From the NCBI GenBank assembly GCA_002256345.1, contig NKIY01000001.1:822194-886193 (forward strand): 64,000 bases of DNA, read 5' to 3'. The notes below the pieces were generated by a model. The model had not been told where the DNA came from. It was given only the letters and a program-made list of their open reading frames with translations, and searched no databases. The translations under genes and the position numbers were made by a program. This DNA is from Bradyrhizobiaceae bacterium PARB1. GTDB taxonomy: Bacteria; Pseudomonadota; Alphaproteobacteria; Rhizobiales; Xanthobacteraceae. Shown here piece by piece: positions 17,353 to 63,606 of the stretch. The stretch's first letter is position 1, and every line of letters begins with the position of its first letter.

Positions 17353-17377
17353 GGAACGAGCGCGCGACGTGAACATT
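17353..17377 (+). promoter_or_regulatory. EcfG-type promoter, GGAAC-N16-CATT
   Basis: GGAAC at 17353-17357, 16 bases, CATT at 17374-17377; the predicted start of transcription is about 42 bases before ATG 17429. The shape matches the alphaproteobacterial general stress sigma (GGAAC-N16/17-CGTT, or GGAAC-N18-TT). Confidence 0.65.
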
Positions 17378-17428
17378 GCACCGTCGCCCGACACCATTGG
17401 CCGGCCTTCCGGCCTCTTAAGAGGTTCC

Positions 17429-17653
17429 ATGACCGACGATCAGACCCCTTCCGTGACCGAACAACTGTCTGACGTCACCTCGACCGTGACAGAGACCGTG
17501 AAGTCCGCCGCGAGCACCATAAAAGGCGCGATCGAGGAGGGCCGGAAGCCCGGCAACTCGCTCGACACTTTGAGCAAGATCGTGCGCCAGGCGCCCCTCG
17601 CGGCAATGGTCGTCGCATTTTTGGTCGGGCGAGCCTCGAAGAGGCGCTGGTGA
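17429..17653 (+). CDS. Small ElaB/DUF883-like membrane-anchored protein
   Basis: 74 residues from ATG 17429. A polar helical region (VTEQLSDVTSTVTETVKSAA) is followed by a C-terminal hydrophobic anchor (APLAAMVVAFLVGRA) ending in SKRRW. This layout is like ElaB/DUF883 proteins, which bind ribosomes at the inner membrane in stationary phase, but direct homology is weak. The stress-type promoter just upstream fits. Confidence 0.6.
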   Translation: MTDDQTPSVTEQLSDVTSTVTETVKSAASTIKGAIEEGRKPGNSLDTLSKIVRQAPLAAMVVAFLVGRASKRRW

Positions 17654-17975
17654 TGCTCGCTGAGCTCGACCGCACTAGGCACGCTTTCGAACGCTACCTT
17701 CATCGTGCAGAGGAGCCGGTGCGAACAAAGACGATCTCATACGTCTTTGCAATCGGGCCTCTCGCAAGCCGATTGTTTGTCGCAATCATCTCATCGGCAT
17801 CTCGCGTTGGAATTGCGCCGGCAGCAACCGTCGCATCGTTGCCCACGCGCAGGGGCGTGGCGCGCGGCGGCTCCGCCGTGTCGGCAATCGTCATTGGGTC
17901 GTCCCTCATGGGATCGGCATGGGTGTGGCGACGTAATTCACGGCTCAGCTTAGTGTGACCCTGGAGGAGTTGCGG
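17654..17975. other. Intergenic region without a supported gene
   Basis: About 320 bases before the permease gene. Opposing frames (17650-17958 plus, 17700-18008 minus) are open, but neither has a ribosome site, a convincing composition or a family match. Confidence 0.4.
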
Positions 17976-19958
17976 ATGCGTATCGATCCTCCAATTCCTA
18001 GCGAACATCTCGATACGAACCGAGAGGCCGGAGGTCTTGTTGCCGCTGTGGCAAGCGCGATCCTTGCGGCGATGATTATCACTGCACTATATTTCGGGCG
18101 GCAAATCTTCGTGCCGATGGCGTTGGCCATTCTGCTGACATTCGTGCTGGCGCCCGCGGTGCACGCCCTGCAGCATATCCGGGTTCCGCGGAGCCTCGCC
18201 GTCGTAGGCGTTGTCCTCTGCGCGTTCGCCTGCATCCTTGGTTTGGCGAGCTTGTTCGCGGCCCAATTGAGCGATCTCGCCGGCGAGCTTCCCAAGTACC
18301 AAACTACCATAAGTCAGAAGATCAACTCGCTGCGGAGCACGACGGCCGGACGAGGGACGCTTGAACGCGCATCCGACATGCTCAAAGATCTAAGCAAAGA
18401 GCTGGACAGGCCGGGGCCTGCGGTTCGCGGGTCTGCCTCAGGGCAGGTCTCCCTGACGCCGTCCGGAGCGGTGACGCCGGTGCCGGTCGAAGTCCGGCAG
18501 CCCGATCCCACCGCGCTCGAAAATCTCCGAACAGTCTTGTCGCCCCTGATCCACCCGTTGGCGACCACAGGGATCATCGTGATCTTTGTGATCTTCATTC
18601 TGATGCAAAGGGAAGACCTCCGCAACCGACTGATTCGATTGGCCGGCGCACACGACTTGCAGCGCACGACCGCCGCTCTCGACGACGCCGCCGCGCGTCT
18701 GAGCCGGCTGTTTCTCACGCAGATCGCCGTCAACGGAGCGTTTGGTACCGTGATCGGTTTGGGACTGTGGGCTATCGGCATCCCCAGCCCGGTTCTTTGG
18801 GGTATACTGGCTGCCGTACTGCGGTTCGTGCCGTACGTCGGCGCCGTGATCGCGGCGGCTTTTCCCTTGATTCTCGCCGTCGCCGTCGACCCGGGATGGT
18901 CGCTCCTGCTTTGGACGGCGGCGCTCTTTCTTCTCGTCGAGCCGCTCGTCGGGCACGTTATCGAACCGCTTGTCTACGGGCGAAGCACCGGCCTTTCGCC
19001 CGTCGCCGTCGTCGTCGCCGCTACGTTCTGGACCGCGCTATGGGGGCCGATCGGCCTTGTCCTCGCTACCCCGCTTACTGTGTGTCTCGTCGTCCTCGGC
19101 CGTCACGTAGAAAAGCTGCAATTTCTGGACGTCATGTTCGGCGACAGACCGGCCCTGACGCCGCCGGAAATCTTCTACCAACGCATGCTCGCCGGAGACC
19201 CCATAGAAGCAGCCGAAAAGGCCGAGCAATTCCTCAAGGAGCGCTCGCTGGTTTCGTATTACGATCAGGTTGCCATCCCGGGGTTGCGCCTGGCACAGAA
19301 CGACTCCGACCGCGGCGCGCTGCAGCTTGAGCGGCAGGCGAAACTGCGGGATTCCGTCCTGGAGTTTGCGTCGAACCTGGCCGAAATCGACGAAGAGGAG
19401 GAGGACGACGTCCCGACGTTGGACGCCGAGGCCGCGACCGCGGTGGATCGAAGTCCGGACCGAGACCACGCGGAGCGCATGCCTGTTCTCAAACGGGAGG
19501 ATCTGGCGCCAGAATGGCGCGGAGACCCTGCGGTTCTATGCATGGCGGGTCGGTCCTTGATCGACGAAGCCGCGGCCGTCGCGATTGCGCACCTCCTAGA
19601 GGTGCATGGGATCGCCGCGAAGGTCGAGCCCTCGGAGTTGCTCACCAACGCCAACATCGTGCGATTGCAGCCAGATGACGTGCGGGTCGTCTGCCTCGTT
19701 CATATGGGTGAAGAAGTGGCGTCGCACACCCGCTTCGCGATCAGGCGGCTGAAGCGAAGGATGCCGAAGGCGCGGATCATGCTCTGTTGGTGGTCGGGTC
19801 GGATCGATGAAGAGACCGCGGAGCGACGTCGTCTGGAGGCGAGGGCGGACCTCGTTGTAACGTCCCCCGGTCACGCGCTTGCGAGACTGCTCGACGCAGC
19901 CGCGTCGGTCCCGATCACCACCAACTCCGAAAGCAAGCCGGCAAGGATCGCGAAGTGA
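17976..19958 (+). CDS. AI-2E/PerM family permease with a long C-terminal domain
   Basis: 660 residues from ATG 17976, which has GGAGGAG six bases upstream. Residues about 20-380 form the AI-2E transporter (PerM/YdiK-like) membrane part: YFGRQIFVPMALAILLTFV, GTVIGLGLWAIGIPSPVLWG, LPYVGAVIAAAFPLI-like and VIEPLVYGRSTGLSPVAVVV. Family members usually stop near 350-380; here about 280 more residues follow, with an acidic linker (EIDEEEEDD) and a Rossmann-like domain (VLCMAGRSLIDEAAAVAI, VCLVHMGEEV). The substrate is unknown; such permeases are often ion or organic-anion exporters. Confidence 0.85.
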   Translation: MRIDPPIPSEHLDTNREAGGLVAAVASAILAAMIITALYFGRQIFVPMALAILLTFVLAPAVHALQHIRVPRSLAVVGVVLCAFACILGLASLFAAQLSDLAGELPKYQTTISQKINSLRSTTAGRGTLERASDMLKDLSKELDRPGPAVRGSASGQVSLTPSGAVTPVPVEVRQPDPTALENLRTVLSPLIHPLATTGIIVIFVIFILMQREDLRNRLIRLAGAHDLQRTTAALDDAAARLSRLFLTQIAVNGAFGTVIGLGLWAIGIPSPVLWGILAAVLRFVPYVGAVIAAAFPLILAVAVDPGWSLLLWTAALFLLVEPLVGHVIEPLVYGRSTGLSPVAVVVAATFWTALWGPIGLVLATPLTVCLVVLGRHVEKLQFLDVMFGDRPALTPPEIFYQRMLAGDPIEAAEKAEQFLKERSLVSYYDQVAIPGLRLAQNDSDRGALQLERQAKLRDSVLEFASNLAEIDEEEEDDVPTLDAEAATAVDRSPDRDHAERMPVLKREDLAPEWRGDPAVLCMAGRSLIDEAAAVAIAHLLEVHGIAAKVEPSELLTNANIVRLQPDDVRVVCLVHMGEEVASHTRFAIRRLKRRMPKARIMLCWWSGRIDEETAERRRLEARADLVVTSPGHALARLLDAAASVPITTNSESKPARIAK

Positions 19959-20056
19959 ACGGAATCGCAGATGTAGGATGCGATAAGTGCCGCGCGATCG
20001 TTCTACTCGGTGGGGAGAGCCTCCGCATCGGACGAGGGAGGAACAGTCTCCGAAAC

Positions 20057-20098
20057 GCACCGGCGCTCCGCCGGTGCGGCGATCGGGGCTAACGCCCC
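20057..20098. terminator. Two adjacent hairpins after the permease gene
   Basis: GCACCGGCG-CTC-CGCCGGTGC (20057-20077) and GGGGC-TAAC-GCCCC (about 20085-20098), about 100 bases after the permease stop and before the convergent 75-residue gene. Likely terminators; no T-run is seen. Confidence 0.5.
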
Positions 20099-20140
20099 AT
20101 AGGACGCGTCGTGCTGAAACGCCTTTCTTGAAGGCGTAGC

Positions 20141-20368
20141 TCAGCGATCGCCGAGGTAGGTTTGGATCACCTTCAACGCCCCCTCCGGCTCATCGAACTT
20201 GTCGGCGGCGAAACTCTTCATCGGGCTCCAATGGGGCCCGTGCGTCGTGATCCCGAACTTGCCATCCTCGCCGCGGCGAACGCGCCCGATGATCTCATTT
20301 CTCTCGGTCCATACGAGCAACCAGGTCTCCGGTAATTCGTTGTGCGGATGCAGTTCGATGGTGGCCAT
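20141..20368 (-). CDS. Small conserved hypothetical protein
   Basis: 75 residues, soluble: TIELHPHNELPETWLLVWTE, RVRRGEDGKFGITTHGPHWS, ALKVIQTYLGDR. No catalytic motif or family name. The evidence for a real gene is its composition and a stress-type promoter (GGAAC-N16-GTTT on the minus strand, 20423-20399) placed 31 bases upstream. Confidence 0.6.
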   Translation of the reverse strand: MATIELHPHNELPETWLLVWTERNEIIGRVRRGEDGKFGITTHGPHWSPMKSFAADKFDEPEGALKVIQTYLGDR

Positions 20369-20398
20369 GACCCTCGTCCGAAGGAAGCGATACTCGAC

Positions 20399-20423
20399 AA
20401 ACGGGATTGTGCGTCTATGTTCC
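20399..20423 (-). promoter_or_regulatory. EcfG-type promoter, GGAAC-N16-GTTT
   Basis: Minus strand: GGAAC 20423-20419, 16 bases, GTTT 20402-20399, aimed at the 75-residue gene (ATG 20368). It is divergent from the next promoter, with only 8 bases between the two GGAAC boxes. Confidence 0.55.
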
Positions 20424-21588
20424 GGATTGTCGGAACAAGCGGCGTGTTGCGGACTTCAAAGCGCAGCAACGCGAGGAAGACGCCATTCCATCTCCAGCCA
20501 GCCGATCGATCGAGGACATCTTCGTTTTCGCCGCGAAAGCCGCGCAGCGGGCCACAAAAACCGACGGCGATGCAGATATTGCGCCCGAGATCTGGGACGA
20601 TTTCCATTCTAGCGGTTTGGCCGTAAGCCCGTTGCCGGAGGAGTTGGGCGGCGCTTCTCTTTGGGATCCGCGTCACGGCGAACGCCTTTGCGAGGTCCTG
20701 CGGGCGCTCGGCGGGGCGGACCTGTCGATCGCCCGGCTCTACGAGGGCCATCTCAACGCCATCGGCTTGGTGTGTCGCTACGGGTCGCGAGAGCAGATCG
20801 AGGACTTGGCAGCGCATGTGGCTGCCGGAGCGCTTTCGGCAGTCTGGGGAGCCGACGACGCGGAGGCACTCACGATCGTCTCCGGCGAAGGCGGCGAGGT
20901 CCTGAAAGGACGTAAGATACTCGCTTCGGGAGCGGGTTTCGTCACGCGTCCTCTAGTCACCGCTGGGGGCGCTCTTGGGCAGCAGATGTGCCTTCTGGAT
21001 CTCGAGCCCGGATATGTTCACGACATCTCAGGCTGGCGGGCGCAGGGAATGCGTGCCACGGCAACGGGGACGGTGCAATTCACCGGGCGCCGTGTCGGCG
21101 AGCGGGAAATCGTCGGCGCTCCCGGTGACTTCATGCGGCAACCGCATTTTTCCGGCGGAGCCTGGCGGTTCTGCGCGGCGCATGTCGGCGCGACGGAACG
21201 TCTGGTCGATCTGTTCAGGGACCATCTGCGGTCCTCCGGAAGGGGCGAGGATGCCTATCAGCTTGAGCGGCTTGCCGGCTGCGTGGCGGATGCGACGACC
21301 GCGCGTCTTTGGGTAGAGGAGGCTGCACGGCGGCTTGCCTCCGACATCGATGCCGAAGGCATCGTTGCTTTCGCAAACATCACCCGAATGGTCGTCGAAA
21401 GATCCGCCTTGAACGTCATCGAACGGGTCCAAAGGGGCGTCGGCCTTCGCGCTTTCGTGCGGCCGAACGACGTGGAGCGCGTATGCAGGGACTTGGCGAC
21501 CTACTTGCGACAGCCCGTGCCTGACCTGGCCATGAGCGACGGCGCGCGCGCCTTTCTCACCTCGGTGACTCCGGTAGGGGAATTCTGA
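20407..21588 (+). CDS. Acyl-CoA dehydrogenase-like protein of a PIG-L/GT2 cluster
   Basis: Acyl-CoA dehydrogenase fold: LAVSPLPEELGGASLWDP, AVWGADDAEALTIV, LKGRKILASGAGFVTRPLV, WRAQGMRATATGTVQFTGR. The usual catalytic glutamate context is not recognisable, so catalysis is uncertain. The start is unresolved: the formal TTG 20407 lies before the predicted transcript start, and no ATG or GTG follows early; AGGAAG with an ATT codon at 20485 is one option. The stop overlaps the deacetylase ATG by one base, so it is the first gene of a coupled three-gene unit. Confidence 0.75.
   Translation: MCVYVPDCRNKRRVADFKAQQREEDAIPSPASRSIEDIFVFAAKAAQRATKTDGDADIAPEIWDDFHSSGLAVSPLPEELGGASLWDPRHGERLCEVLRALGGADLSIARLYEGHLNAIGLVCRYGSREQIEDLAAHVAAGALSAVWGADDAEALTIVSGEGGEVLKGRKILASGAGFVTRPLVTAGGALGQQMCLLDLEPGYVHDISGWRAQGMRATATGTVQFTGRRVGEREIVGAPGDFMRQPHFSGGAWRFCAAHVGATERLVDLFRDHLRSSGRGEDAYQLERLAGCVADATTARLWVEEAARRLASDIDAEGIVAFANITRMVVERSALNVIERVQRGVGLRAFVRPNDVERVCRDLATYLRQPVPDLAMSDGARAFLTSVTPVGEF
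20432..20456 (+). promoter_or_regulatory. EcfG-type promoter, GGAAC-N16-ACTT
   Basis: GGAAC 20432-20436, 16 bases, ACTT 20453-20456, aimed at the acyl-CoA dehydrogenase/PIG-L/methyltransferase genes. If used, the message would begin near 20465, downstream of the formal TTG start of that gene. Confidence 0.5.
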
Positions 21589-24023: not shown

Positions 24024-24048
24024 AATGCCCCGCAACATGGCAGGTTCC
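24024..24048 (-). promoter_or_regulatory. EcfG-type promoter, GGAAC-N16-CATT
   Basis: Minus strand: GGAAC 24048-24044, 16 bases, CATT 24027-24024, aimed at the GT2 gene with about 20 bases of leader to ATG 23993. Confidence 0.65.
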
Positions 24049-24482: not shown

Positions 24483-25193
24483 TCAGGGGTCGAGTGGTTT
24501 CCGCAGATGCAGATAGGTCGGCTGAAACTGTCCGATATCTGACAATGTCTTCCAGTTGCGGATCGTGATGCGCCCATTCTGAAGATCGGCGGTGCCATTC
24601 GCTCTCAACTCTGCCAGAGATCTGTTGACGGTGGCCAACGACAGTCCCAACGTCTCCCCTAGTTGCCTGAGGCCGATCGGTGCGCTGCAATCGTGGCTGG
24701 TCGTCAGCCTGGCAGCCTTCGACCGATAAACCAACTCGCAGAAAAGATGGGCCATGCGCGCGGTTGGACCGCGGGAGCTGTTGTTCGTGATCGCTTCGCG
24801 GAAGATCGCGGCATCGATCAAGGTCTCGCGCCAAACGGCTCCCGCGAGCGACGATCGCCTCTCGAAGGCTGCAAAGAGGGCGGCGTGAGGAATCAAGCCC
24901 ACGACGGCAGGTCCGATTGCGCACACCGCGTGGTCCATCCGGTCTACGAAGAGCGCCTGGGTATCGGGAAGGTCGCCGGCTAGATGATAGGACAGATACT
25001 GGCGCCTCCCGTCCGGCAAGAGGTGATATCGCGCGACCAAACCCTCGAGTACGAGTGCGGAAGACGTGGGTCTGTCGCCCTGCCGTACGATATCGTCGTC
25101 AGGATCCAGCACTCGCGTCATCACGGGAAGCTTACGAAGTTCTGCGACATCACGGGCAGTCAGTCGAGAATGCTCGGACAGCTTCCTGATCAT
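24483..25193 (-). CDS. Crp/Fnr-family transcription regulator
   Basis: 236 residues. The N-terminal cyclic-nucleotide-type barrel (DDDIVRQGDRPTSSALVLEG, YHLAGDLPDTQALF) lacks Fnr cysteines; the C-terminal winged helix is LRQLGETLGLSLATVNRSLA. It resembles the rhizobial Crp-like regulators often found near stress genes. It is divergent from Mn catalase across 163 bases, which makes control of the catalase plausible, though no Crp-type half-sites are evident there. Confidence 0.85.
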   Translation of the reverse strand: MIRKLSEHSRLTARDVAELRKLPVMTRVLDPDDDIVRQGDRPTSSALVLEGLVARYHLLPDGRRQYLSYHLAGDLPDTQALFVDRMDHAVCAIGPAVVGLIPHAALFAAFERRSSLAGAVWRETLIDAAIFREAITNNSSRGPTARMAHLFCELVYRSKAARLTTSHDCSAPIGLRQLGETLGLSLATVNRSLAELRANGTADLQNGRITIRNWKTLSDIGQFQPTYLHLRKPLDP

Positions 25194-25300: not shown

Positions 25301-25325
25301 GGAACAGACCACTCAGGCGCAGGTT
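25301..25325 (+). promoter_or_regulatory. EcfG-type promoter, GGAAC-N16-GGTT
   Basis: GGAAC 25301-25305, 16 bases, GGTT 25322-25325, 31 bases before the Mn catalase ATG. Confidence 0.6.
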
Positions 25326-25356
25326 CAGAAGGCATCACAACCCAGGAGGTAGCACG

Positions 25357-26271
25357 ATGTTCCTTCGTGTCGACAAACTGCAGGCCGAGCTTCCGATTCC
25401 TAAGGCTCCGAACCCGAACGCGGGAGCCGCACTCCAGGAACTTCTCGGCGGCAAGTACGGCGAGATGTCCACGCTCAACAATTACATGTTCCAGAGCTTC
25501 AACTTTCGCAGCAAATCCAAGCTTCGTCCGTTCTACAGTCTCGTCGCGGCCATCACCGCTGAAGAGCTTGGGCACGTAGAACTCGTCAGCAACGGCGTCG
25601 CCATGTTGAACAACGGTCCCGGCGATCCGACCGAAGGTGTCGATCTCAGCGGCGCGCCGTTCGAGGACATGCAGGACATTCGGTTGGCGGCTTCGTTTGT
25701 GTCGGGTGCGGGCGGTGCGATGCCGATGAACAGTAACGGCGCGTCGTGGAACATGGATTTCGTGACGTCAAGCGGCAACGTAATCATGGACCTGCTGCAT
25801 AATTTTCATCTCGAATGCGGTGCCCGGCTTCACAAGCTTCGCGTCTACGAGACGATGACGGAGCCGACCGGGCGGGAAGTTTGTGGCTATCTCCTTGTCC
25901 GCGGCAGCGTCCACGCTCACGCATATGCCTTGGCCATCAAGAAGCTGACGGGCGTCGAGATCGAGAAGATGTTGCCCGCGCCGAAGATCAATCTCGACAA
26001 CATTCCGGAATGCCAGAAGTATCTGGCCGAAGGATCCCACCGTCGGCTCTACACCTTCAGCCCCAAGGACTACGTCGAGATGGCCGGGATTTGGGGCAAC
26101 GGCGAGATGGCGCTGCCGGGAGATCCGGTCGGCGATCTGGAAGTCGTCGAGGGGATGCCGGATGGCGCCAAGATTGCGGAGTTGGAAGGTACGCCGTCTG
26201 CCTTCGCTCCGGACTATGCGCCCGAAGAATTCTACGAAATCGCTTCGAAACTCTACAAGAAATCTCGTTGA
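25357..26271 (+). CDS. Manganese (non-haem) catalase
   Basis: 304 residues from ATG 25357 with AGGAGG upstream. The ferritin-like four-helix core carries the dimanganese ligands: an early Glu region (LLGGKYGEMSTLNNYMF), ITAEELGHVELV (Glu and His), FHLECGARLHKLRVYE and the VHAHAYALAI helix. It disproportionates hydrogen peroxide without haem. It has a stress-type promoter, and the same-strand genes that follow (H1-like, Mfd-like) suggest an oxidative-damage unit. Confidence 0.93.
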   Translation: MFLRVDKLQAELPIPKAPNPNAGAALQELLGGKYGEMSTLNNYMFQSFNFRSKSKLRPFYSLVAAITAEELGHVELVSNGVAMLNNGPGDPTEGVDLSGAPFEDMQDIRLAASFVSGAGGAMPMNSNGASWNMDFVTSSGNVIMDLLHNFHLECGARLHKLRVYETMTEPTGREVCGYLLVRGSVHAHAYALAIKKLTGVEIEKMLPAPKINLDNIPECQKYLAEGSHRRLYTFSPKDYVEMAGIWGNGEMALPGDPVGDLEVVEGMPDGAKIAELEGTPSAFAPDYAPEEFYEIASKLYKKSR

Positions 26272-30098: not shown

Positions 30099-30123
30099 GG
30101 AACTGACCTCGTCGTCCGTCATT
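30099..30123 (+). promoter_or_regulatory. EcfG-type promoter, GGAAC-N16-CATT
   Basis: GGAAC 30099-30103, 16 bases, CATT 30120-30123, 51 bases before ATG 30175. Confidence 0.65.
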
Positions 30124-30174
30124 AGCGTCATGGAAGAGGGCGTGACCCTTGCATGAAAATTTTGGAGATTCGTG

Positions 30175-30468
30175 ATGGATTTGGAAGTCAAGGCTGCATT
30201 CAGAGATCGCCGCGCCGCGGAGATCGCACTCGAGCATCTCGTCCAAGAGATCGGCCTGGAGAGGACGGATATATTCATTGCTGCCAACGGCGCTCAAAAC
30301 ACCTCGGGTAGCAGGCAAGCAGGTGCCGATGTTCATGGCAGCCTCGCCGAATCTAGAGCCGCGGCTCCCGTGTTGGAAGGCGAGATCAACATGTCGGTCG
30401 GGTGCGACCGAGAGAAAGTCGATCGGGTCGCCCAAGCTCTGCGGGATGCCGGCGGCGAAATTCGATAG
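30175..30468 (+). CDS. Small conserved stress-associated protein
   Basis: 97 residues from ATG 30175 with TTGGAG upstream. VKAAFRDRRAAEIALEHLVQ, IGLERTDIFIAANG and LEGEINMSVGCDREKVDRVA give an alternating helix/strand pattern like YflT/DUF1269-type stress domains, in which a beta strand is followed by an AE-rich helix. No exact family assigned. The stress-type promoter upstream supports a general stress role. Confidence 0.6.
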   Translation: MDLEVKAAFRDRRAAEIALEHLVQEIGLERTDIFIAANGAQNTSGSRQAGADVHGSLAESRAAAPVLEGEINMSVGCDREKVDRVAQALRDAGGEIR

Positions 30469-33980: not shown

Positions 33981-34766
33981 CTAGTCCTTCGCCGATCCCG
34001 GCTCCGCCATCTTGCGATGCTGCCCGGCAAGGACACCAGCCGGAATGACGTTGGCGGCGGCGGATTGGACTTTGTTTTTCAGCCCGCTGACGACGTCGCC
34101 AGCGCCGCTCATCATGGCCTTAAAGCCGTCTTCGGCAACCTTTGCAGGATCGTCCTTCTCGGTCGTGCCGACATCGGTATCCATCATGTCGGCACGACGG
34201 AAGAATTCGGTGTCGGTCGCGCCCGGCATCAGGCAGGTCACCGTGATCCCGGTGTCTTTCAGCTCCTCCCGTAGCGCAAACGAGAAGGAATTGAGGAATG
34301 CCTTGCTGCCATTGTAGACCGCCTGAAAGCTGCCCGGAATGAAACCCGCGATTGAACCGGTAATCAATATTTTCCCAGCGTTACGCCGCCGCATGTCATT
34401 GCCGATTTTATGGATAAGATAGGTGGTGCCGGTGATGTTGGTATCGATGACATGACGGGCCTTGGCAAAATCCTGGTCGAGAAACGCGCGCCCGAGGCCG
34501 CGGCCCGCATTGGCCAGAAGCGCATCGACCTGACGACCTTTGATCGCCTCATATAATTGATCAACGCCCTCCAGCGTTGCGAGGTCGGCAGTGAGCGCTT
34601 CAACGTAGGCGCCGCTGCTGCGGACTTGCGCCGCTGCATCCTCAATTGCCGGCTCATCGGCGACAACGAGCAGATCGAAGCCTTCCTTGGCGCAGCATTT
34701 TGCCAACTCTAGACCGATGCCGGTTGAGGCGCCGGTGACGATGGCGAATGGTCGGTTGGCGGACAT
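33981..34766 (-). CDS. SDR-family oxidoreductase
   Basis: 261 residues. NAD(P) site FAIVTGASTGIGLELAKCCA (TGxxxGIG), ADLA and NAGRG motifs, catalytic Ser in ITGSIAGFIPG and Tyr-x3-Lys as YNGSKAF. It belongs to the YqjQ/DltE-like classical SDRs. The C-terminal 40 residues (MMSGAGDVVSGLKNKVQSAA and on) form an extension. Its promoter is of the stress type and back-to-back with that of the Zn-ADH gene. Confidence 0.9.
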   Translation of the reverse strand: MSANRPFAIVTGASTGIGLELAKCCAKEGFDLLVVADEPAIEDAAAQVRSSGAYVEALTADLATLEGVDQLYEAIKGRQVDALLANAGRGLGRAFLDQDFAKARHVIDTNITGTTYLIHKIGNDMRRRNAGKILITGSIAGFIPGSFQAVYNGSKAFLNSFSFALREELKDTGITVTCLMPGATDTEFFRRADMMDTDVGTTEKDDPAKVAEDGFKAMMSGAGDVVSGLKNKVQSAAANVIPAGVLAGQHRKMAEPGSAKD

Positions 34767-46150: not shown

Positions 46151-46459
46151 ATGGACAGCATCACGTCATGGATCGGTTTGATCGCAGCGGCCTGTACCTC
46201 CTTGTCCTACATTCCTCAGGTCCGAAAGGCGCTGCCACGTGGATCGACGAGTGATCTGTCTCTTAAAATGCTCGCAGTGCTTACGTCCGGTCTGGCGATG
46301 TGGGTCGTATATGGAGTCCTGAAGACCGACTGGGTCATCGTCGTCGCCAACACGGTCGGCGCCGGCCTCAGCGGGGCGGTCCTGCTCTGCAAACTTCGCG
46401 ACCTGCGTTCCTCAAGCAAAGCGGCCGCCAAGCAGGTAAACGCCTCCGACCAATTGTAG
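46151..46459 (+). CDS. SemiSWEET/PQ-loop transporter (second copy)
   Basis: 102 residues, three helices. SLSYIPQVRKALPRGSTSDL with the PQ motif, then LTSGLAMWVVYGVLKTDW and GAGLSGAVLLCKLRDLRS. About half the residues match the copy at 36054-36332, which points to duplication. Each copy follows an enzyme gene closely. The C-terminal 15 residues are a charged extension. Confidence 0.85.
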   Translation: MDSITSWIGLIAAACTSLSYIPQVRKALPRGSTSDLSLKMLAVLTSGLAMWVVYGVLKTDWVIVVANTVGAGLSGAVLLCKLRDLRSSSKAAAKQVNASDQL

Positions 46460-48870: not shown

Positions 48871-49128
48871 ATGAAATCCACCATCCGCAAGCGGTCGTTG
48901 GACATCGCGGGGCACAAGACCAGCGTCAGTCTGGAGGATGAATTCTGGTCCGCGTTGAAGGAAATCGCGCGGTACGAGGGTGTTACCGTCTTCGAGCTGG
49001 CGACCAGGATCGATAAAAGACGAACCGCCGTTTCGAAGTCCAACCTTTCGTCTGCCATCCGCCTTTTCGTGCTAGATCACTACGTTCGGAGGCGATCGCC
49101 GCCCGGCGTCGCCGATCTTCCGGATTAG
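48871..49128 (+). CDS. Ribbon-helix-helix protein (RHH_4 type)
   Basis: 85 residues. KRSLDIAGHKTSVSLEDEFW is the ribbon strand and SALKEIARYEGVTVFELATR the first helix; SNLSSAIRLFVLDHYVRR the second. This RHH_4 type occurs as small regulators in rhizobia. It precedes the histidine kinase by 13 bases, so it may be part of the same message. Confidence 0.8.
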   Translation: MKSTIRKRSLDIAGHKTSVSLEDEFWSALKEIARYEGVTVFELATRIDKRRTAVSKSNLSSAIRLFVLDHYVRRRSPPGVADLPD

Positions 49129-49141
49129 AAAAAGGTGTCGC

Positions 49142-51514
49142 GTGACAGACGAACGGGCCGCCGGCTCGCTGAGAGATCGGGAGAATGAGCTCGCCGAGGT
49201 GCAGCGCATCGCGAAGGTCGGCGGCGTCCTCGTCCACCTCACCAACGGGTTCGAGAACAAGCGCTCGCCTGAATATCTCGCGATCCACGGACTGCCGCCC
49301 GAGGCGGTCAACGAGACGCACCAAGACTGGGTCAGGCGGCTTCATCCCGACGATCGGGAACGAGCCGAGCGCCAATTTCTGGATATGCTCGAAGGCAAAG
49401 CCGAGCGCTATTCCTCCGAGTACCGCATCATCCGCCCCAACGACGGCGAGGTACGCTGGATAGCGGCTGAGGGCCGCATCGAGCGCGATCGAAACGGGCG
49501 CCCCGTCCGGATGGTCGGCGCCCACATCGACGTCACGGATCGGGCTCAGGCCCGCGAAATGCTCCGGGAAAGCGAGGAGCGGTTTCGGCTCATCGCCGAC
49601 AGCGCACCGGTCCCGATGTGGGTCACCCGGATGGATCGAACCCGGAGCTTCGCCAACAAGGCCTACGTGGACTTCGTCGGTGTCCCCTACGAACAGGCAC
49701 TGGCATTCGACTGGCGGACCATCCTCCATCCCGATGACGCTCAGCGCGTGGTGAAGGAAAGCATTGCCGGGGAGGCGTCCCTGAAACCCTTCGTGCTGGA
49801 GGCGCGCTACCGCCGAGCCGATGGCGAAATCCGCTGGATCCGCTCGGAATCGCAGCCGCGCTGGGACCCAGCCGGCCGGCACATCGGCTTCATCGGCGTC
49901 GCGCATGACATCACCGTCGCAAAGCAAGCGGAGATCAATCTGCGATCGGTGAACGATGATCTCGAGCTTCTTGTCGCGCAGCGAACCGCCCAGCTCCGCA
50001 GCAGAGAATCCCAGCTTCGTGCGATTCTCGAGACCACGAACCAGCATCAGGACCTTCTCGATCTCGAGGGACAGGTCGTCTACGCCAACGCCACTGCCCT
50101 GTCTGCTGCAGCGGTCGGCCCGGAGGATGTGCTCGGTAAACGTTTTTGGGAAGCGGCTTGGTTCGACGAGGCGCCGGCGGTAGCGAAAGCGGTCGAGGAG
50201 GCGTTCCGCCAGGCGTCCAATGGTGCGACTTCGAGAATGGACCTCGAATTGAGCCTCCCTGCAGGCCGCCGGCTTTTCGAGCTCGCCTTGCGCCCCGTGA
50301 CGGACGAGACCGGCGAAATAACGGCCGTCCTGGCGGAAGCCGTGGATACGACCGAGCGGCGGACCAACGAGGAAGCGCTTCGCCAGGCGCAGAAGATGGA
50401 AGCGGTCGGACAGTTGACCGGCGGAGTCGCCCACGACTTCAACAATCTTCTCACGATCATCCGGTCGGCGACGGATTTTCTCCGTCGTCGCGACCTTCCG
50501 GAAGAGCGCCGGCGAAGATACGTCGATGCCATCTCGGACACGGCAGACCGGGCATCTAGGCTGACCGGTCAACTGCTCGCATTCGCTCGCCGACAGCCTC
50601 TGGCGCCCGTCGCCTTCGACGTCGGCGTGCAAATCGACAGCGTGGCGAGCCTGATCCGTCCGCTCGTCGGTGGCCGGGTCCAGATCGAAGTGAACGCTCC
50701 GGACAAAGGGATGCTCGCCGTCGCGGATATCGGGCAGTTCGAGACGACGTTGGTCAACTTGGCCGTCAACGCCCGCGACGCGATGAACGGCGAGGGGCGG
50801 CTCGTCATCTCCGCCGAGCCCGCTGTGGAGATCCCGGCAGTCCGATCCCATTCCGCCCGGCCTGGCGATTACGTCGCAGTCTCGGTGGCGGATAGCGGCA
50901 CAGGCATTCCGCCCGAGCACATTCAGACGATATTCGAACCGTTCTTCACGACGAAAGAGGTCGGGCGCGGCACGGGGCTGGGCCTGAGCCAAGCCTTCGG
51001 CTTCGCGAAGCAGTCGGGCGGCGACATCGTGGTGACCAGCATCGTCGGAGAAGGGTCTGTCTTCACGATCTATCTGCCTCGCAGTCGTTCCACGGCCGCA
51101 GCCGATCCCGCCCCGGCGCCGCATACGGATCTCACCAGCGGGCAAGGACACCGGATCCTAGTGGTCGAGGACAACCCGGATGTCGGCCGGTTTTCCACCG
51201 AGCTCCTGGAGGATCTCGGTCACTGGACCGAATGGGTGCGGTCTGCCGACCAGGCCCTCGCGGCGCTGTCCGAAAACGAGTTCGCCTTCGACCTGGTCTT
51301 CTCGGATGTCATCATGCCGGGGATGAACGGTGTCGAATTGGGGAACGTCATCCGCGAAAGATATCCCGGACTGCCCGTCGTGCTCACGTCCGGCTACAGC
51401 AGCGTTCTCGCTGAAAACGCGCATCGCGGATTTGAGCTCATTCAGAAGCCGTATTCGGTGGAAGCGCTGTCGAGAACGCTGCGGAAGGCGATCGGAGATC
51501 GATCGCGCAGATAG
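49142..51514 (+). CDS. Hybrid PAS sensor histidine kinase with receiver domain
   Basis: 790 residues from GTG 49142. Three PAS-like sensors in tandem (ending EYRIIRPNDGEVRWIAAEGR; YRRADGEIRWIRSESQPRW; TNQHQDLLDLEGQVVYANAT), H-box GQLTGGVAHDFNNLLTII, N-box LAVNARDAMNG, G boxes VADSGTGIPPEHIQTIFEPF and GTGLGLSQAFGFAKQSGG, then a receiver (ILVVEDNPDVGRFSTE, phospho-Asp in VFSDVIMPGMNG). Cytoplasmic, no membrane helix. Such PAS-HK-REC proteins commonly feed stress pathways; a PhyR/EcfG link is inference. Confidence 0.92.
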   Translation: MTDERAAGSLRDRENELAEVQRIAKVGGVLVHLTNGFENKRSPEYLAIHGLPPEAVNETHQDWVRRLHPDDRERAERQFLDMLEGKAERYSSEYRIIRPNDGEVRWIAAEGRIERDRNGRPVRMVGAHIDVTDRAQAREMLRESEERFRLIADSAPVPMWVTRMDRTRSFANKAYVDFVGVPYEQALAFDWRTILHPDDAQRVVKESIAGEASLKPFVLEARYRRADGEIRWIRSESQPRWDPAGRHIGFIGVAHDITVAKQAEINLRSVNDDLELLVAQRTAQLRSRESQLRAILETTNQHQDLLDLEGQVVYANATALSAAAVGPEDVLGKRFWEAAWFDEAPAVAKAVEEAFRQASNGATSRMDLELSLPAGRRLFELALRPVTDETGEITAVLAEAVDTTERRTNEEALRQAQKMEAVGQLTGGVAHDFNNLLTIIRSATDFLRRRDLPEERRRRYVDAISDTADRASRLTGQLLAFARRQPLAPVAFDVGVQIDSVASLIRPLVGGRVQIEVNAPDKGMLAVADIGQFETTLVNLAVNARDAMNGEGRLVISAEPAVEIPAVRSHSARPGDYVAVSVADSGTGIPPEHIQTIFEPFFTTKEVGRGTGLGLSQAFGFAKQSGGDIVVTSIVGEGSVFTIYLPRSRSTAAADPAPAPHTDLTSGQGHRILVVEDNPDVGRFSTELLEDLGHWTEWVRSADQALAALSENEFAFDLVFSDVIMPGMNGVELGNVIRERYPGLPVVLTSGYSSVLAENAHRGFELIQKPYSVEALSRTLRKAIGDRSRR

Positions 51515-52444: not shown

Positions 52445-52469
52445 GGAACGAGACAATGACTTGCGGCTT
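52445..52469 (+). promoter_or_regulatory. EcfG-type promoter, GGAAC-N16-GCTT, with long leader
   Basis: GGAAC 52445-52449, 16 bases, GCTT 52466-52469, about 100 bases before ATG 52577. The leader holds GGTCCCGCCC (52506-52515) with complement GGGCGGGACC (52537-52546). Confidence 0.5.
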
Positions 52470-52576: not shown

Positions 52577-52729
52577 ATGCCGAAACGTGAAGATGGTCAG
52601 ATTGTCGAGACAGCGACCGAAGTCCGCCAAGGTGAGCGAGGACCGTCTGTCCTGACCTTACTGATCGTCAGTGTAGCGATCGCGCTGGTGGCAATGGCCG
52701 TTATCTGGATTGTTTTTTTCAAGACGTAG
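52577..52729 (+). CDS. Small single-helix membrane protein (50 aa)
   Basis: ATG 52577 with GGGGGAG upstream. A polar start MPKREDGQIVETATEVRQGE, then GPSVLTLLIVSVAIALVAMA and a final VIWIVFFKT: one helix with a basic end. A related tail lies at 33672-33869. Its stop overlaps the convergent small gene by 11 bases. No function known. Confidence 0.65.
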   Translation: MPKREDGQIVETATEVRQGERGPSVLTLLIVSVAIALVAMAVIWIVFFKT

Positions 52730-52907
52730 CGGGCACCAAGCTCGGTGCTGCGACAATATCGACGCTGATTCTGGCGCGCTCTTCGTATTCAGCTGCAGCC
52801 GCGGTGAATCTCTCTCGCGCCGCTGAGTCGATGGCGAAGTCGGCCATTTCCCGAGCGATCAGTGCAAGCTTACGCAGTTGTACGACGTCTTCCATGAATC
52901 CCCCCAT
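52719..52907 (-). CDS. Small helical protein, stress-promoter gene
   Basis: 58-62 residues; ATG 52907 (MGGFMED) or 52895 (MEDVV). VVQLRKLALIAREMADFAID, SAARERFTAAAAEYEERARI. An Ala/Glu-rich coiled helix. A stress-type promoter lies at 53004-52980 and a hairpin (52913-52939) just before the start. Confidence 0.6.
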   Translation of the reverse strand: MGGFMEDVVQLRKLALIAREMADFAIDSAARERFTAAAAEYEERARISVDIVAAPSLVPATS

Positions 52908-52979: not shown

Positions 52980-53004
52980 AATGCAGCCGCCCTCGTTCGG
53001 TTCC
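52980..53004 (-). promoter_or_regulatory. EcfG-type promoter, GGAAC-N16-CATT
   Basis: Minus strand: GGAAC 53004-53000, 16 bases, CATT 52983-52980, aimed at the 52719-52907 gene. Confidence 0.6.
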
Positions 53005-53681: not shown

Positions 53682-54137
53682 TCAGGCCGCTTTCGACTCG
53701 ATCTGCGTCACATCGCTGGGCAGGCTGCCATCGATCGCGATGCGGCGCGGCTTCTTCGCTTCGGGGATTTCGCGCTGCAGATCGATGACCAGCAGGCCGT
53801 TCTCGAAGCGGGCTCGCTTGACCTCCACGTGATCGGCAAGCGTGAACTGACGCTTGAAGTCCCGTGCAGAGATACCGCGGTGGAGAAAGTCGCGCTTTTC
53901 CTTATCGCTCTTACGGCTTTCGAGCGTCAACACGTTCTGCTCGACCGTGAGCTCGACCTCGTCCGGTCTGAAGCCGGCAAGCGCGACCGAGATCTGGAAG
54001 TTATTCTCGTCGAGCCGTTCGATGTTGTAGGGGGGATAGGTTTCGTCGCCCACCCGCTGCGCGGTTTCGGCGAGGTTCAAGAGGCGGTCGAAGCCTATGG
54101 CCGACCGGAAGAGGGGCGTAAAATCAACAGTGCGCAT
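53682..54137 (-). CDS. Small heat-shock protein Hsp20 (IbpA type)
   Basis: 151 residues. TVDFTPLFRSAIGFDRLLNL is the class A start, YPPYNIERLDENNFQISVAL, VTVEQ-like region ELTVEQNVLTLESRKSDKEK, FLHRGISARDFKRQFTLADH, ARFENGLLVIDLQREIPE the alpha-crystallin domain. It holds unfolding proteins in the cytosol. The leader has a ROSE-type thermosensor. Confidence 0.95.
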   Translation of the reverse strand: MRTVDFTPLFRSAIGFDRLLNLAETAQRVGDETYPPYNIERLDENNFQISVALAGFRPDEVELTVEQNVLTLESRKSDKEKRDFLHRGISARDFKRQFTLADHVEVKRARFENGLLVIDLQREIPEAKKPRRIAIDGSLPSDVTQIESKAA

Positions 54138-54195
54138 AGCCAGATCCTCCAGGGAGCAAAATGGTTACGAACAGCACCGGACACGACCGGTGCCC
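54138..54195 (-). promoter_or_regulatory. ROSE-type RNA thermometer leader of hsp20
   Basis: Minus-strand leader ends TTTTGCTCC-CT-GGAGGAT with ATG nine bases on. TTGCTCC can pair with the GGAG of the ribosome site, which is the hallmark of the ROSE element that heat opens in Bradyrhizobium hsp leaders. A stable upstream stem GCACCGG / CCGGTGC (54193-54174) matches the 5' stems of ROSE. Confidence 0.75.
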
Positions 54196-54254
54196 GTCTC
54201 AGTTTCCGGGACCCTGACGGCGTCCCGATCGCCATCATCATGGCGACGCCGTAA

Positions 54255-55213: not shown

Positions 55214-55238
55214 GGAACCAGGGTGGGAAGCATCGATT
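55214..55238 (+). promoter_or_regulatory. EcfG-type promoter, GGAAC-N16-GATT
   Basis: GGAAC 55214-55218, 16 bases, GATT 55235-55238, 28 bases before the SDR ATG. Confidence 0.55.
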
Positions 55239-55266: not shown

Positions 55267-56130
55267 ATGCCCATCGACCATCCCAAGCCGCCTTTCCCGT
55301 CCCAGAAACAGTCCATCCCAGGCTCTACCGCCGCAATGCAGCCACGTCCGGATCACGGCGAGACGAGCTACAAGGGATCCGGCCGGCTGAACGGAATGAG
55401 GGCCGTCATCACGGGCGGAGACAGCGGCATCGGGCGCGCGGTCGCGATCGCATACGCCCGGGAGGGCGCGGACCTCGTCATCGCCTATCTGAGCGAAAAC
55501 GCCGACGCGGAGGACGTGAAGAAGCTCGTCGAAGCGGAAGGCCGCAAGGCGGTATTGGTTCCGGGCGACATCACCGATCCGGCCCATTGCCGGAAGATCA
55601 TCGAGACGGCCGTGGACGAGCTCGGAGGCATAGACATCCTCGTCAACAACGCCGCCCACCAGGCCACCTTCAAGGATATCGGCGACATCAGCGACGAGGA
55701 GTGGGAGCTGACGTTCAGGACCAACATCCACTCGATGTTCTATCTAAGCAAGGCAGCCGTTCCGCATATGAAGCCGGGGCGGGGCGCCATCGTCAACACG
55801 GCTTCCGTCAACTCCGACATGCCCAACCCGACCCTTCTGGCCTACGCCACCACGAAGGGCGCGATACAGAACTTCACCGGCGGTCTGGCGCAGCTGCTCG
55901 CCGAGAAGGGCATCCGCGCCAACGCGGTCGCACCGGGGCCGATCTGGACGCCTTTGATCCCTTCCACGATGCCGGATGAGGCGGTGAGGTCGTTCGGCAG
56001 TCAGACGCCGATGAAGCGCCCGGGGCAGCCGGGCGAACTTGCGACCACCTACGTGATGCTGGCAGACCCGCTATCGAGCTACGTTTCGGGTACGACCATC
56101 GCCGTTACCGGCGGCAAGCCCTTCATCTGA
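55267..56130 (+). CDS. SDR-family oxidoreductase, YghA/YhdF type
   Basis: 287 residues from ATG 55267. The long N-terminal arm with PPFPSQKQSIPG is typical of the YghA-like group, then the NADP site MRAVITGGDSGIGRAVAIAY, NNAAHQATF, catalytic Ser in NTASVNSDMP, Tyr-x3-Lys as YATTKGAI and a C-terminal SGTTIAVTGGKPF. Related proteins (YdaD, GsiB region) are general-stress genes in Bacillus; the EcfG-type promoter here agrees. Confidence 0.93.
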   Translation: MPIDHPKPPFPSQKQSIPGSTAAMQPRPDHGETSYKGSGRLNGMRAVITGGDSGIGRAVAIAYAREGADLVIAYLSENADAEDVKKLVEAEGRKAVLVPGDITDPAHCRKIIETAVDELGGIDILVNNAAHQATFKDIGDISDEEWELTFRTNIHSMFYLSKAAVPHMKPGRGAIVNTASVNSDMPNPTLLAYATTKGAIQNFTGGLAQLLAEKGIRANAVAPGPIWTPLIPSTMPDEAVRSFGSQTPMKRPGQPGELATTYVMLADPLSSYVSGTTIAVTGGKPFI

Positions 56131-59067: not shown

Positions 59068-59271
59068 CTACTTGCCGTCCTCGGAAAGGTTGGCGTCTTC
59101 GCGCAACTGGTCGATGAGCTCCGATGCCTCGGCCTTCGTCAGGTCCTCCTTCGTCGGATCAGGCTTGTGAGCTTGCTCGCTGAGGGTCTTCAGGTAGGAG
59201 CCCTGAGCCCCCGTCATCGGATCGGACCCGGAAACCCAGTCCTTCGGGTCTTTCTGCGTGTTGTCGGCCAT
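59068..59271 (-). CDS. DUF3072 small protein
   Basis: 67 residues. DPKDWVSGSDPMTGAQGSYL, KTLSEQAHKPDPTKEDLTKA, EASELIDQLREDANL. DUF3072 members are small, acidic, of unknown role. A stress-type promoter lies 28 bases upstream. Confidence 0.88.
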   Translation of the reverse strand: MADNTQKDPKDWVSGSDPMTGAQGSYLKTLSEQAHKPDPTKEDLTKAEASELIDQLREDANLSEDGK

Positions 59272-59298: not shown

Positions 59299-59323
59299 AA
59301 CCGCTTCCTTGCAGAATCGTTCC
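59299..59323 (-). promoter_or_regulatory. EcfG-type promoter, GGAAC-N16-GGTT
   Basis: Minus strand: GGAAC 59323-59319, 16 bases, GGTT 59302-59299, aimed at DUF3072. Confidence 0.62.
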
Positions 59324-62659: not shown

Positions 62660-62789
62660 ACTGTTTATTGCGCCAGCAAGTCGTGCGCGAGACGCGACCT
62701 CTTCTTAACAGCCGGTACGAAGCGGCCGTCCGCATAGAGCCGATCGGGCAGGCGGTTTGGGACACCTACAACTTTGCTGACGGATCCAT

Positions 62790-63140
62790 TCGGCGGTAGG
62801 AGAGCGCATTCCAAGACGGCTTTCCGGTCGTTGCGACCGCTGCGGACCGGAATGTGGAGCTGCGATCTGCGCTGTCGATCCGATGCGAACTTGCCAGTGG
62901 TCTCAGCCGGGCCACGGCACCGCCGAGTAGCGCAGCTCCGAAAGCTTGATGCGTGCGCCGCGGATGAACAATGTCGGAATGCTTGCGTCCTCCAGCCCGC
63001 GACGACGATGGCTTGCCCGTCGGTGTGCGGAAAGCCGAGAAAACGAGGCTGACGATGCCGATAAGAGCCTTCTCGATCTGCGCTTGGGAGGGCGGAAATC
63101 TGATCGAGGCGGCCATTCGCATCAATTTCTGGACGGTGCG
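62790..63140 (-). pseudogene. Degraded copy of the KANL3-like hydrolase
   Basis: In mixed registers on the minus strand: AQIEKALIGIVSLVFSAFRT, PTGKP (compare the 38498-39187 gene: AQAEKPLAGVVGLVFLGFPL), LEDASIPTLFIRGARIKLSE (compare LKDVQIPMLFVHGTQDKLAE), and HIPVRSGRNDRKAV (compare HVPARSGRTDREVV). Many indels, no nucleophile region. Confidence 0.7.
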
Positions 63141-63149
63141 TAAAAGTTG

Positions 63150-63413
63150 AACTCTGAAATGACAGGGAAATTCTGCTGGATCTGGCGGGCCACATCGGCC
63201 GGTACGTCCCGAGACCGATTTTTGATCGGGTTGCAGGCCACTAACACAGAGCGGCGACCTGTTCGCGGTGCATGAGATCGGCGATGGTGGTCTTTTAGGA
63301 GGATGCCGTCGTTTCTCGCTAACGGAACTGCTGTCGCGACGGCAATTCCGCATGGGCGTACTCAGTGTCGTGGATACCGGTCGGCATCAGGGGCGGTCTT
63401 TGTTCGAATGCAT
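63150..63413 (-). pseudogene. Degraded copy of the 43763-44113 protein
   Basis: ATG 63413 is in the same place relative to the copy (shared CATGACGCAACTC, with upstream similarity). HDTEYAHAELP, RETTASS-stop-KTTIADLMH, VACNPIKNRSRDVPADVARQ match HDTVYLVVDCH, READINGTDLETVITDLMR, IVAFNTTENWSRDVTSDIAR. Two in-frame stops and a frameshift. The GGAAC box has become GCAAC. Confidence 0.72.
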
Positions 63414-63581
63414 GACGCAACTCGGCAACCCCGGGGTTCGAGAGAAGCGCGGTGATCAGTTGCGGCGACTATGAGAGAGCGCCGCAGTATCTTACTGGCG
63501 TGCGGCGCGATCCGCGTTTCGACATCTTCGGGCAACTGAGCGAAGCTGAGGAATGTGCAGCACCTTAAGGCCGAATTGGCG

Positions 63582-63606
63582 GGAACGGGTAGCTCCCTAC
63601 TTCATT
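63582..63606 (+). promoter_or_regulatory. EcfG-type promoter, GGAAC-N16-CATT
   Basis: GGAAC 63582-63586, 16 bases, CATT 63603-63606, 26 bases before ATG 63633. Confidence 0.65.

Follow-up and report, generated by a model that had tools for sequence, protein, structure and literature searches.

The question raised by this locus is whether the many copies of GGAAC-N16-NNTT that precede its genes serve the alphaproteobacterial general stress response (GSR) as promoters, and whether they form a physically clustered regulon. The window is the whole stretch of DNA analysed, 64 kb in length. We consider it very probable that its sites are GSR promoters and that the window covers most of an EcfG island at ~839–899 kb of contig C22.

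EcfG-type sites in the window

A pattern search of the window returned all 15 GGAAC-N16-NNTT sites of the original prediction, with the coordinates and strands given there. The −35 element GGAAC is present in 15/15, being part of the pattern by which the sites had been sought. Thirteen of the 15 lie 26–51 nt upstream of a start codon on the correct strand, a figure that includes two revised starts, and the remaining two lie 84 and 107 nt upstream of small ORFs. The revised starts are 20485 (ATT) for the acyl-CoA dehydrogenase, settled by alignment, and 23993 for the glycosyltransferase (GT2), settled by start codon only. The predicted promoters and the genes that they precede are as follows.

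16303–16905: YflT-domain gene, comes after the minus-strand gene 16918–17235
16918–17235, minus: protein of 105 aa with a weak, sub-threshold Pfam match to PepSY_2
17269–17293, minus: EcfG-type promoter, GGAAC-N16-TGTT, 33 nt upstream of gene 16918–17235; absent from the original list
17353–17377, plus: EcfG-type promoter, CATT, 51 nt upstream of ORF 17429–17653 (74 aa)
20399–20423, minus: EcfG-type promoter, N16-GTTT or N15-CGTT, 30 nt upstream of ORF 20141–20368 (75 aa)
20432–20456, plus: EcfG-type promoter, ACTT, 28 nt upstream of the probable ATT start (20485) of an acyl-CoA dehydrogenase gene
to 22897: acyl-CoA dehydrogenase, then PIG-L and methyltransferase genes, downstream of the 20432 site
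24024–24048, minus: EcfG-type promoter, CATT, 30 nt upstream of a glycosyltransferase gene when 23993 is taken as its start
25301–25325, plus: EcfG-type promoter, GGTT, 31 nt upstream of Mn catalase gene 25357–26271
25339–25363, minus: doubtful N16 match, 145 nt upstream of Crp-type regulator gene 24483–25193; overlaps the Mn catalase start
30099–30123, plus: EcfG-type promoter, CATT, 51 nt upstream of an ORF that begins at 30175 (98-aa frame 30172–30468)
34796–34820, minus: EcfG-type promoter, GGTT, 29 nt upstream of short-chain dehydrogenase (SDR) gene 33981–34766
34828–34852, plus: EcfG-type promoter, GCTT, 27 nt upstream of Zn alcohol dehydrogenase (Zn-ADH) gene 34880–36049
41873–41897, minus: EcfG-type promoter, CATT, 45 nt upstream of DUF4142 gene 41288–41827
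44144–44168, minus: EcfG-type promoter, TCTT, 30 nt upstream of ORF 43763–44113 (116 aa)
52445–52469, plus: possible EcfG-type promoter, GCTT, 107 nt upstream of ORF 52577–52729 (50 aa)
52980–53004, minus: possible EcfG-type promoter, CATT, 84 nt upstream of ORF 52721–52895
55214–55238, plus: EcfG-type promoter, GATT, 28 nt upstream of SDR gene 55267–56130
59299–59323, minus: EcfG-type promoter, GGTT, 27 nt upstream of DUF3072 gene 59068–59271
63582–63606, plus: EcfG-type promoter, CATT, 26 nt upstream of ORF 63633–63992

The 50-aa product of ORF 52577–52729 resembles one membrane segment. ORF 63633–63992 has an AGGAGG ribosome-binding site and a weak, sub-threshold Pfam match to SnoaL.

With k as the number of bases between GGAAC and TT, the N16 spacing corresponds to k = 18 (GGAAC-N18-TT), which occurred 20 times across the window. 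The 22 other spacings (8–30 bases between) gave a mean of 4.14 and a maximum of 9 (Poisson P = 1.8e-8 for N16); N16 alone was in excess. The genome-wide total of 603 in 6.95 Mb corresponds to 5.55 expected per window (P = 1.7e-6 for 20, or 1.8e-4 after multiplication by 109 windows). The 20 matches comprise the 15 listed sites, one good additional site (17269–17293, minus) and four chance-like or doubtful matches (13092+, 25339−, 26632− and 55538−). The first 17 kb holds a single match, 13092, inside a called gene, in agreement with the earlier remark that no site precedes the Liv operon, a name taken from the original prediction and not from our annotation.

Gene-upstream N16 matches numbered 9 in 5.6 kb in the window and 57 in 101 kb of the sample, where the other spacings from 12 to 25 gave 2–14 matches each and k = 19 gave 25. 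Normalised to upstream bases or to genes, the enrichment near gene starts relative to the rest held: in the window 9 of 59 genes (15%) carried a site, and beyond the clusters 38 of 957 (4%) did (odds ratio 4.35, P = 0.001). The first gene caller was too insensitive and a retrained version was used; since calling misses small genes (52577, 52895, 63633 and others), 9/59 is an undercount. From 16303 onward, ~16 predicted promoters lie among 45 called genes.

The −10 element

CATT occurs in six and GGTT in three of the 15 listed sites, as had been tallied. TT is present in the −10 of all of them, and CATT is the commonest −10 in the window. CGTT at N16 was found in 0/15 window sites versus 17/55 gene-upstream sites in other sampled stretches (Fisher P = 0.015); one window site (20399–20423) reads CGTT at N15. 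Strict GGAAC-N16/17-CGTT was not in excess genome-wide (137 versus 139 in the reversed control) and was dropped as a genome-wide signal, the reversed control being a poor null here that runs high (901 versus 603 for the motif). A flexible −10 of EcfG promoters is noted in a portion of PMC7083833. We take the window promoters to be of the ordinary EcfG kind, with a −10 that is relaxed.

Conservation of the motif upstream of homologues

The motif recurs upstream of homologous genes although the spacer sequences differ. It was found before 49/80 Zn-ADH relatives, 26/34 DUF4142 homologues, 14/18 homologues of SDR 55267–56130 (site 55214) and 5/6 Mn catalase homologues (site 25301), three of which are same-genus and 96–100% identical. 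Among the small proteins, it precedes 4/4 homologues of gene 16918–17235 (site 17269), 5/7 of ORF 17429–17653 (site 17353), 2/2 of the ORF at 30175 (site 30099; one identical) and 3/4 of ORF 43763–44113 (site 44144). A paralogue of the last (78% identity) in the other cluster of the contig likewise bears a site. The fraction was 15/69 for SDR 33981–34766 (site 34796), 3/6 for the Crp-type regulator (doubtful site 25339) and 3/13 for DUF3072 (site 59299), the three being the nearest homologues (70–84% identity).

For site 20399, the N16 form precedes one and the N15 form both of the two homologues of ORF 20141–20368, and the −35 and TTT are retained in genome G001. The acyl-CoA dehydrogenase site (20432) forms a conserved block in the alignment with G001, with more divergent DNA around it. 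The counts for the glycosyltransferase (0/1) and acyl-CoA dehydrogenase (0/3) homologues were taken from wrong starts. The motif precedes 0/2 weak homologues of ORF 52577–52729, and no homologue of the ORFs served by sites 52980 and 63582 was present among the loci compared, so that homologue support is missing at 3/15 sites (52445, 52980 and 63582).

Clustering on the contig and in other genomes

Both a scan covering ~978 kb of the contig and a comparison with 80 other genomes supported the proposal of a physically clustered regulon. Two N16 hot spots were found, at 660–740 kb (densest at 700–740 kb) and at ~839–899 kb, and the window covers most of the latter. The largest N16 count per 64 kb was 31 against a null mean of 16.3 (0/5000 as high), and the variance/mean ratio was 3.3 versus 0.64–1.36 for 12 other spacings. 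The clustering of N16 sites is real. The two hot spots have paralogous genes in common, and 12/34 sites in the first cluster and 7/11 right of the window lie within 150 nt upstream of a called start.

The targets in the window include Mn catalase, DUF4142, DUF3072, dehydrogenases and small proteins of no known kind; right of the window, the island holds DUF2177, DUF3606, a receiver-domain protein and a PRC-barrel gene. Target kinds bearing a site are PRC-barrel, CsbD, DUF892, iron permease and DUF3606. Ku, encoded to the right of the window, lacks an exact site of its own and was rejected as a gene directly served.

Outside the clusters, the raw counts for k = 18, 12 and 24, which share codon phase, were 92, 89 and 92, and promoters are marked there by position alone, with 41/92 k = 18 sites within 150 nt upstream of a start. 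We rejected the genome-wide difference between k = 18 and k = 17 (603 versus 400) as a measure of a regulon of ~200 genes, because codon phase raises multiple-of-three spacings and k = 12, 18 and 24 are equal outside the clusters.

In the surroundings of the Zn-ADH relatives in the 80 other genomes, 407 sites were observed versus 141.0 expected, a density 2.9 times that of the same genomes overall; 21/80 loci had no excess above expectation. From these dense stretches and the similar ones here, part of the stress system appears to be grouped in islands.

At the edge of the window island, no integrase was found (the nearest match on the contig is weak, at 781 kb) and no tRNA either, the sole tRNA in the 13 stretches scanned being in stretch L031, ~27 kb past the last site. 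A mobile element at this island, sought through integrase and tRNA, was not found. An integrase match lies at 741248 of the contig, just past the 660–740 kb cluster. Presence in the genus is patchy: among 18 genomes, some of them incomplete, close Mn catalase homologues occur in 4 and DUF4142 homologues in 13.

The GSR core genes and the proposed mechanism

A Pfam profile search identified one NepR in the genome. It adjoins genes that we take to encode EcfG, PhyR and an HWE kinase, EcfG and PhyR being identified from sequence and gene order. The nepR–ecfG promoter has the same k = 18 motif with CATT, 90 nt upstream of the called nepR start, and a k = 18 site with GATT lies upstream of the HWE kinase gene. 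This core lies on the same contig at a distance of ~670 kb, and a location of ecfG and phyR near the window was rejected. Pfam Sigma70_ECF gave 16 matches in the genome, EcfG itself not among them, and two further EcfG-like proteins (34–38% identity) lie within the sampled stretches.

The PhyR–NepR–EcfG mechanism is established for the family. By analogy, a GSR histidine kinase would phosphorylate PhyR under stress, and phosphorylated PhyR would pull NepR away from EcfG. EcfG–RNA polymerase would then recognise GGAAC-N16-NNTT and begin transcription just past the TT. Many of the island genes, not all, would have their own EcfG promoter.

Alternative explanations

The matches might be due to chance, favoured by a permissive pattern, abundant intergenic DNA and starts chosen after the fact. 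The N15–18 pattern over the window indeed barely exceeds shuffles (30 matches versus a mean of 22.0, sd 5.5; 8/100 shuffles reach 30) and, too weak by itself as evidence, was replaced by the spacing contrasts; coding density is lower in the window (71% versus 83%), and two starts were revised once the sites were known. Against this, N16 alone is elevated, the excess survives per upstream base and per gene, and the motif recurs before homologues with differing spacers. Chance is refuted for the whole set and we give it hardly any probability, although the single sites 52445, 52980 and 25339 could still be chance matches. Islands rich in short genes, in which all promoter classes are dense, could explain the clustering and would be compatible with EcfG promoters. 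Genes are indeed short, and coding density low, in the cluster stretches; however, the other GGAAC–TT spacings, which served as the comparison instead of other promoter classes, are hardly elevated there, and the fraction of genes that carry a site is higher in the window than outside the clusters. This account is unlikely.

The promoters could also be real and be read mainly by another ECF sigma factor that uses a GGAAC −35, which we consider very unlikely. The Sigma70_ECF matches, the two EcfG-like proteins and the lack of CGTT in the window sites would suit such a factor, as would the overlap of Sinorhizobium meliloti RpoE6 targets with those of RpoE2 described in part of PMC6180224. By contrast, nepR–ecfG is preceded by the same motif with CATT, the target kinds and the occurrence of the motif before genes across the genome match a general stress regulon, and ECF26 prefers GGAATA/GT (PMC6180224). 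EcfG control is the best reading of the sites, judged from sequence. The original assignment to EcfG general stress promoters stood as to spacing, position, homologues, core genes and target kinds; we infer the sigma dependence and the transcription starts, and the −10 is NNTT.

Proposed islands of stress genes and comparison with known systems

The clustering may reflect stress genes that are gained and exchanged in ready-to-use form. We see an even chance that part of the alphaproteobacterial GSR regulon lies in recurring islands, on chromosomes and plasmids, of short genes each carrying its own EcfG promoter, where content turns over and paralogues are exchanged while the promoter grammar is fixed. 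With a fixed grammar, a newly gained gene would join the stress response at once. If so, GSR genes could be found and grouped by neighbourhood, deleting an entire island would make a practical test of phenotype, and one could study how stress tolerance spreads via transfer of promoter-bearing genes.

The sites resemble the EcfG (ECF15) regulons of Rhizobium etli EcfG1, S. meliloti RpoE2 and Sphingomonas and Sphingopyxis EcfG, as far as these are covered in portions of PMC3892343, PMC6599016, PMC7083833 and PMC6180224, in the GGAAC −35, the spacer of ~16, the −10 TT, sites near starts, autoregulated nepR–ecfG, and PRC-barrel and SDR-type targets. Targets of EcfG or RpoE2 in PMC6599016 and PMC6180224 include PRC-barrel genes. 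Unlike in those regulons, CGTT is not the main −10 in the window and part of the sites lie in two hot spots; the relevant portion of PMC6599016 describes EcfG sites spread throughout the genome, and those of the four papers contain no mention of clustering. Grouping of EcfG promoters into islands of changing gene content was not found in the open literature searched and seems new.

In R. etli CFN42, plasmid p42b carries, like the window, GGAAC-N18-TT before a Zn-ADH, a DUF4142 and an SDR gene. The Zn-ADH region has 11 sites in 41 kb versus 0–7 for 13 other spacings, and 8/11 lie within 150 nt upstream of an annotated start. It differs in being plasmid-borne, in having mostly different neighbours and in that the SDR adjacent to the ADH lacks its own site. 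The papers found by p42b gene tags do not concern the GSR by title; through this region, the island idea could be compared with existing R. etli transcriptomes. In the acid fitness island of E. coli, stress genes controlled by a general stress sigma factor are likewise physically clustered; that island differs in the sigma factor, in its narrower function and in its fewer separate promoters.

Spacing and clustering of the EcfG-type motif

We counted matches to the EcfG-type promoter pattern of the general stress response (GSR), GGAAC-N16-NN-TT, by the number of bases between GGAAC and TT (k=18 for this pattern). The assembly comprises 6.95 Mb in 32 contigs; the window lies at C22:822194–886193 and has a GC content of 61.7%. 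All 15 sites of the original prediction were located in the window. Spacers of 15–18 pooled showed a weak excess (30 window matches vs 22.0 in shuffles). Fixing the spacer at 16 (k=18) gave a strong excess: the window held 20 matches, while 22 other spacings (8–30) averaged 4.14 and never exceeded 9. Codon phase lifts counts at spacings divisible by three, but k=9, 12, 15, 21, 24, 27 and 30 gave 0–7 window matches, and thus the 20 are not explained by phase. The density in 60 other genome stretches (1.19 Mb) was 7.3 per 64 kb, compared with 20 in the window; these stretches contained 137 k=18 matches and 57–108 for each other spacing from 10 to 27.

About 978 kb of the window's contig, C22, was scanned, giving 133 k=18 sites. 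The highest 64-kb count was 31, whereas 5000 random placements gave a mean of 16.3 and a maximum of 26. The variance/mean ratio in 20-kb bins was 3.3 for k=18 and 0.64–1.36 for 12 other spacings. The second of two hot spots extends from the first good window site (about 839.5 kb) to 898.5 kb. Beyond C22, 14 stretches (280 kb) contained 24 k=18 sites vs 7–22 for other spacings. An integrase match lies at C22:741248, directly past the first cluster, and GC falls to 0.55 in that stretch.

Table. k=18 sites per consecutive 20 kb of C22.
Hot spot 1, 660–740 kb: 6, 4, 12, 12
Hot spot 2, 820–900 kb: 3, 9, 6, 13

Position relative to gene starts

Genes were called with a simple trained model, and small genes were missed by the caller. 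Of 59 window genes, 9 had a site within 150 nt upstream of the start; of 957 genes outside the clusters, 38 did (odds ratio 4.35, P 0.001). This enrichment, the overdispersion on C22 and the two hot spots support the proposed physical clustering of putative stress promoters. Intergenic DNA within 150 nt before starts contained 16.0 k=18 matches per 10 kb in the window vs 5.6 in the sample, where other spacings (12–25) reached 0.2–1.4, except k=19 (2.5).

Table. k=18 sites with a called start at most 150 nt downstream.
660–700 kb: 2/10
700–740 kb: 10/24
Window: 10/20
Right of window: 7/11
Elsewhere: 41/92

Called starts thus account for no greater share of the sites inside the clusters than elsewhere, and some matches there may lack promoter function. 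For DNA outside the clusters, the totals were 92 (k=18), 89 (k=12) and 92 (k=24); as k=18 does not exceed the others, promoters there are separable from coding matches by position only.

The sites had been described as always pointing at a gene start. In 13 of 15, the TT is located 26–51 nt upstream of a start codon, in two cases after starts were moved (23993 for the glycosyltransferase; the ATT at position 20485 for the acyl-CoA dehydrogenase). The dehydrogenase frame has no ATG, GTG or TTG within 60 codons past 20407. The ATT, accompanied by a GAGGA element, is retained with the promoter block in a genome of the same genus (G001), where adjoining DNA diverges more, and looks like the start codon. 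A 79% paralogue of this gene elsewhere in PARB1 is likewise preceded by a k=18 site. One overlooked site was found at 17269–17293 (minus strand), with the motif before 4/4 homologues.

Conservation in other genomes

Table. Homologues with the motif upstream.
Mn catalase: 5/6
DUF4142: 26/34
SDR3 (55267–56130): 14/18
PepSY-like (16918–17235, minus strand): 4/4
74-aa ORF: 5/7
98-aa ORF: 2/2
116-aa ORF: 3/4
SDR1 (33981–34766, minus strand): 15/69
DUF3072: 3/13
Crp: 3/6
75-aa ORF: 1/2
50-aa ORF: 0/2
Glycosyltransferase (GT2), scored with old start: 0/1
Acyl-CoA dehydrogenase, scored with old start: 0/3

The counts include near-identical homologues, which contribute little; the loci surveyed contained no homologue of the 52895 and 63633 ORFs. 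In R. etli p42b, an SDR lies 46 nt downstream of the ADH on the same strand and might therefore do without a separate promoter; such an arrangement may partly account for the low SDR1 figure. The Tardiphaga sp. RYN_492 locus has the promoter before its SDR3 homologue.

We collected 80 loci solely by similarity to the Zn-ADH (34880–36049). Within 250 nt upstream of this gene, k=18 occurred in 49/80, k=19 in 26, k=17 in 8 and other spacings in 0–4; many k=19 matches are TTT runs of k=18 sites. A second homologue survey (200 nt) found the motif in 48/83. With the ADH promoter itself excluded, the loci contained 407 k=18 matches, 261 at k=19 and 118–179 at 12 further spacings. Each genome's own k=18 density predicts 141.0 (ratio 2.89); 59 of the 80 loci exceeded their prediction, 32 of them at P<0.01 (Wilcoxon P 3e-9). 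Genomes for 12 loci were picked after the ranking was seen; the remaining 68 gave 257 vs 114.1 expected, with 47 above and 21 at P<0.01. No excess over own-genome density was found in 21/80, including three Rhodopila, three Aureimonas, two Pseudoroseomonas, two Bradyrhizobium and two Rhizobium loci. Plasmids, too, carry ADH relatives: 322 records reach E<=1e-100, and 48 of these have 80–90% identity.

Window positions 17757–52013 are collinear in G001 (identity 92–99.8%). Its YflT/PepSY-like stretch occurs twice (C1:5700899–5710733 and 5751937–5752982; 97% and 87% to the window), indicating duplication near the island. In another genome of the genus, 35 sites fall within 60 kb, against a mean of 7.7 for other spacings; this separate dense region has only a few genes in common with the window at the DNA level.

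Gene content of the islands

Site-bearing genes right of the window encode DUF2177, DUF3606, a receiver-domain protein, a PRC-barrel protein and small unknowns; Ku and DUF1810 are interspersed there without an exact site. Those in the first cluster encode two PRC-barrel proteins, CsbD, DUF892, iron permease, DUF1236 and unknowns. Many window genes lack their own exact site, among them Hsp20, TspO, DUF808, DUF763, DUF3597, OprB and the PAS kinase. Paralogues common to both clusters are PRC-barrel (88%), Ku (79%), a 116-aa family (78%), iron permease (71%) and Hsp20 (58–59%).

Further features of the window are as follows.
36075–36332 and 46151–46459: PQ-loop gene pair, 66% identical
48871–51514: RHH_4 gene, then multi-PAS HisKA kinase with receiver domain, within the island
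54131–54227, minus strand: ROSE RNA thermometer at the start of the Hsp20 gene (53682–54137)

GSR core and comparison with known promoters

The genome has a single NepR (C22:154.6 kb). Judged from sequence and gene order, the adjoining genes probably encode EcfG, PhyR and an HWE histidine kinase. Upstream of nepR, 90 nt from the start chosen by the caller (14784 in the sampled stretch L013), is the k=18 site GGAAC...CATT. A longer ORF start (14886) would place this site inside the reading frame, but the Pfam NepR match starts after 14784 in the reading direction. Another k=18 site, GGAAC...GATT, lies 54 nt before the HWE kinase gene. Matches to this kinase also occur inside the first cluster (sampled stretch L061:14798–15391) and, as a raw count, in 17/80 Zn-ADH loci. 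The Zn-ADH loci of R. altiplani, Mycoplana and R. wenxiniae encode EcfG-like proteins (42–46% identity). A GSR sigma paralogue may form part of some islands.

We found no recognisable report of EcfG promoters grouped in islands in the open-licence PMC literature, and novelty is claimed within that scope. The published promoter is GGAAC-N16-CGTT in R. etli (PMC3892343) and in Sphingopyxis, where a flexible -10 was remarked (PMC7083833), and GGAAC-N17-20-GTT in Sphingomonas, with NNTT examples (PMC6599016). The commonest -10 among the window sites is CATT, as before nepR.
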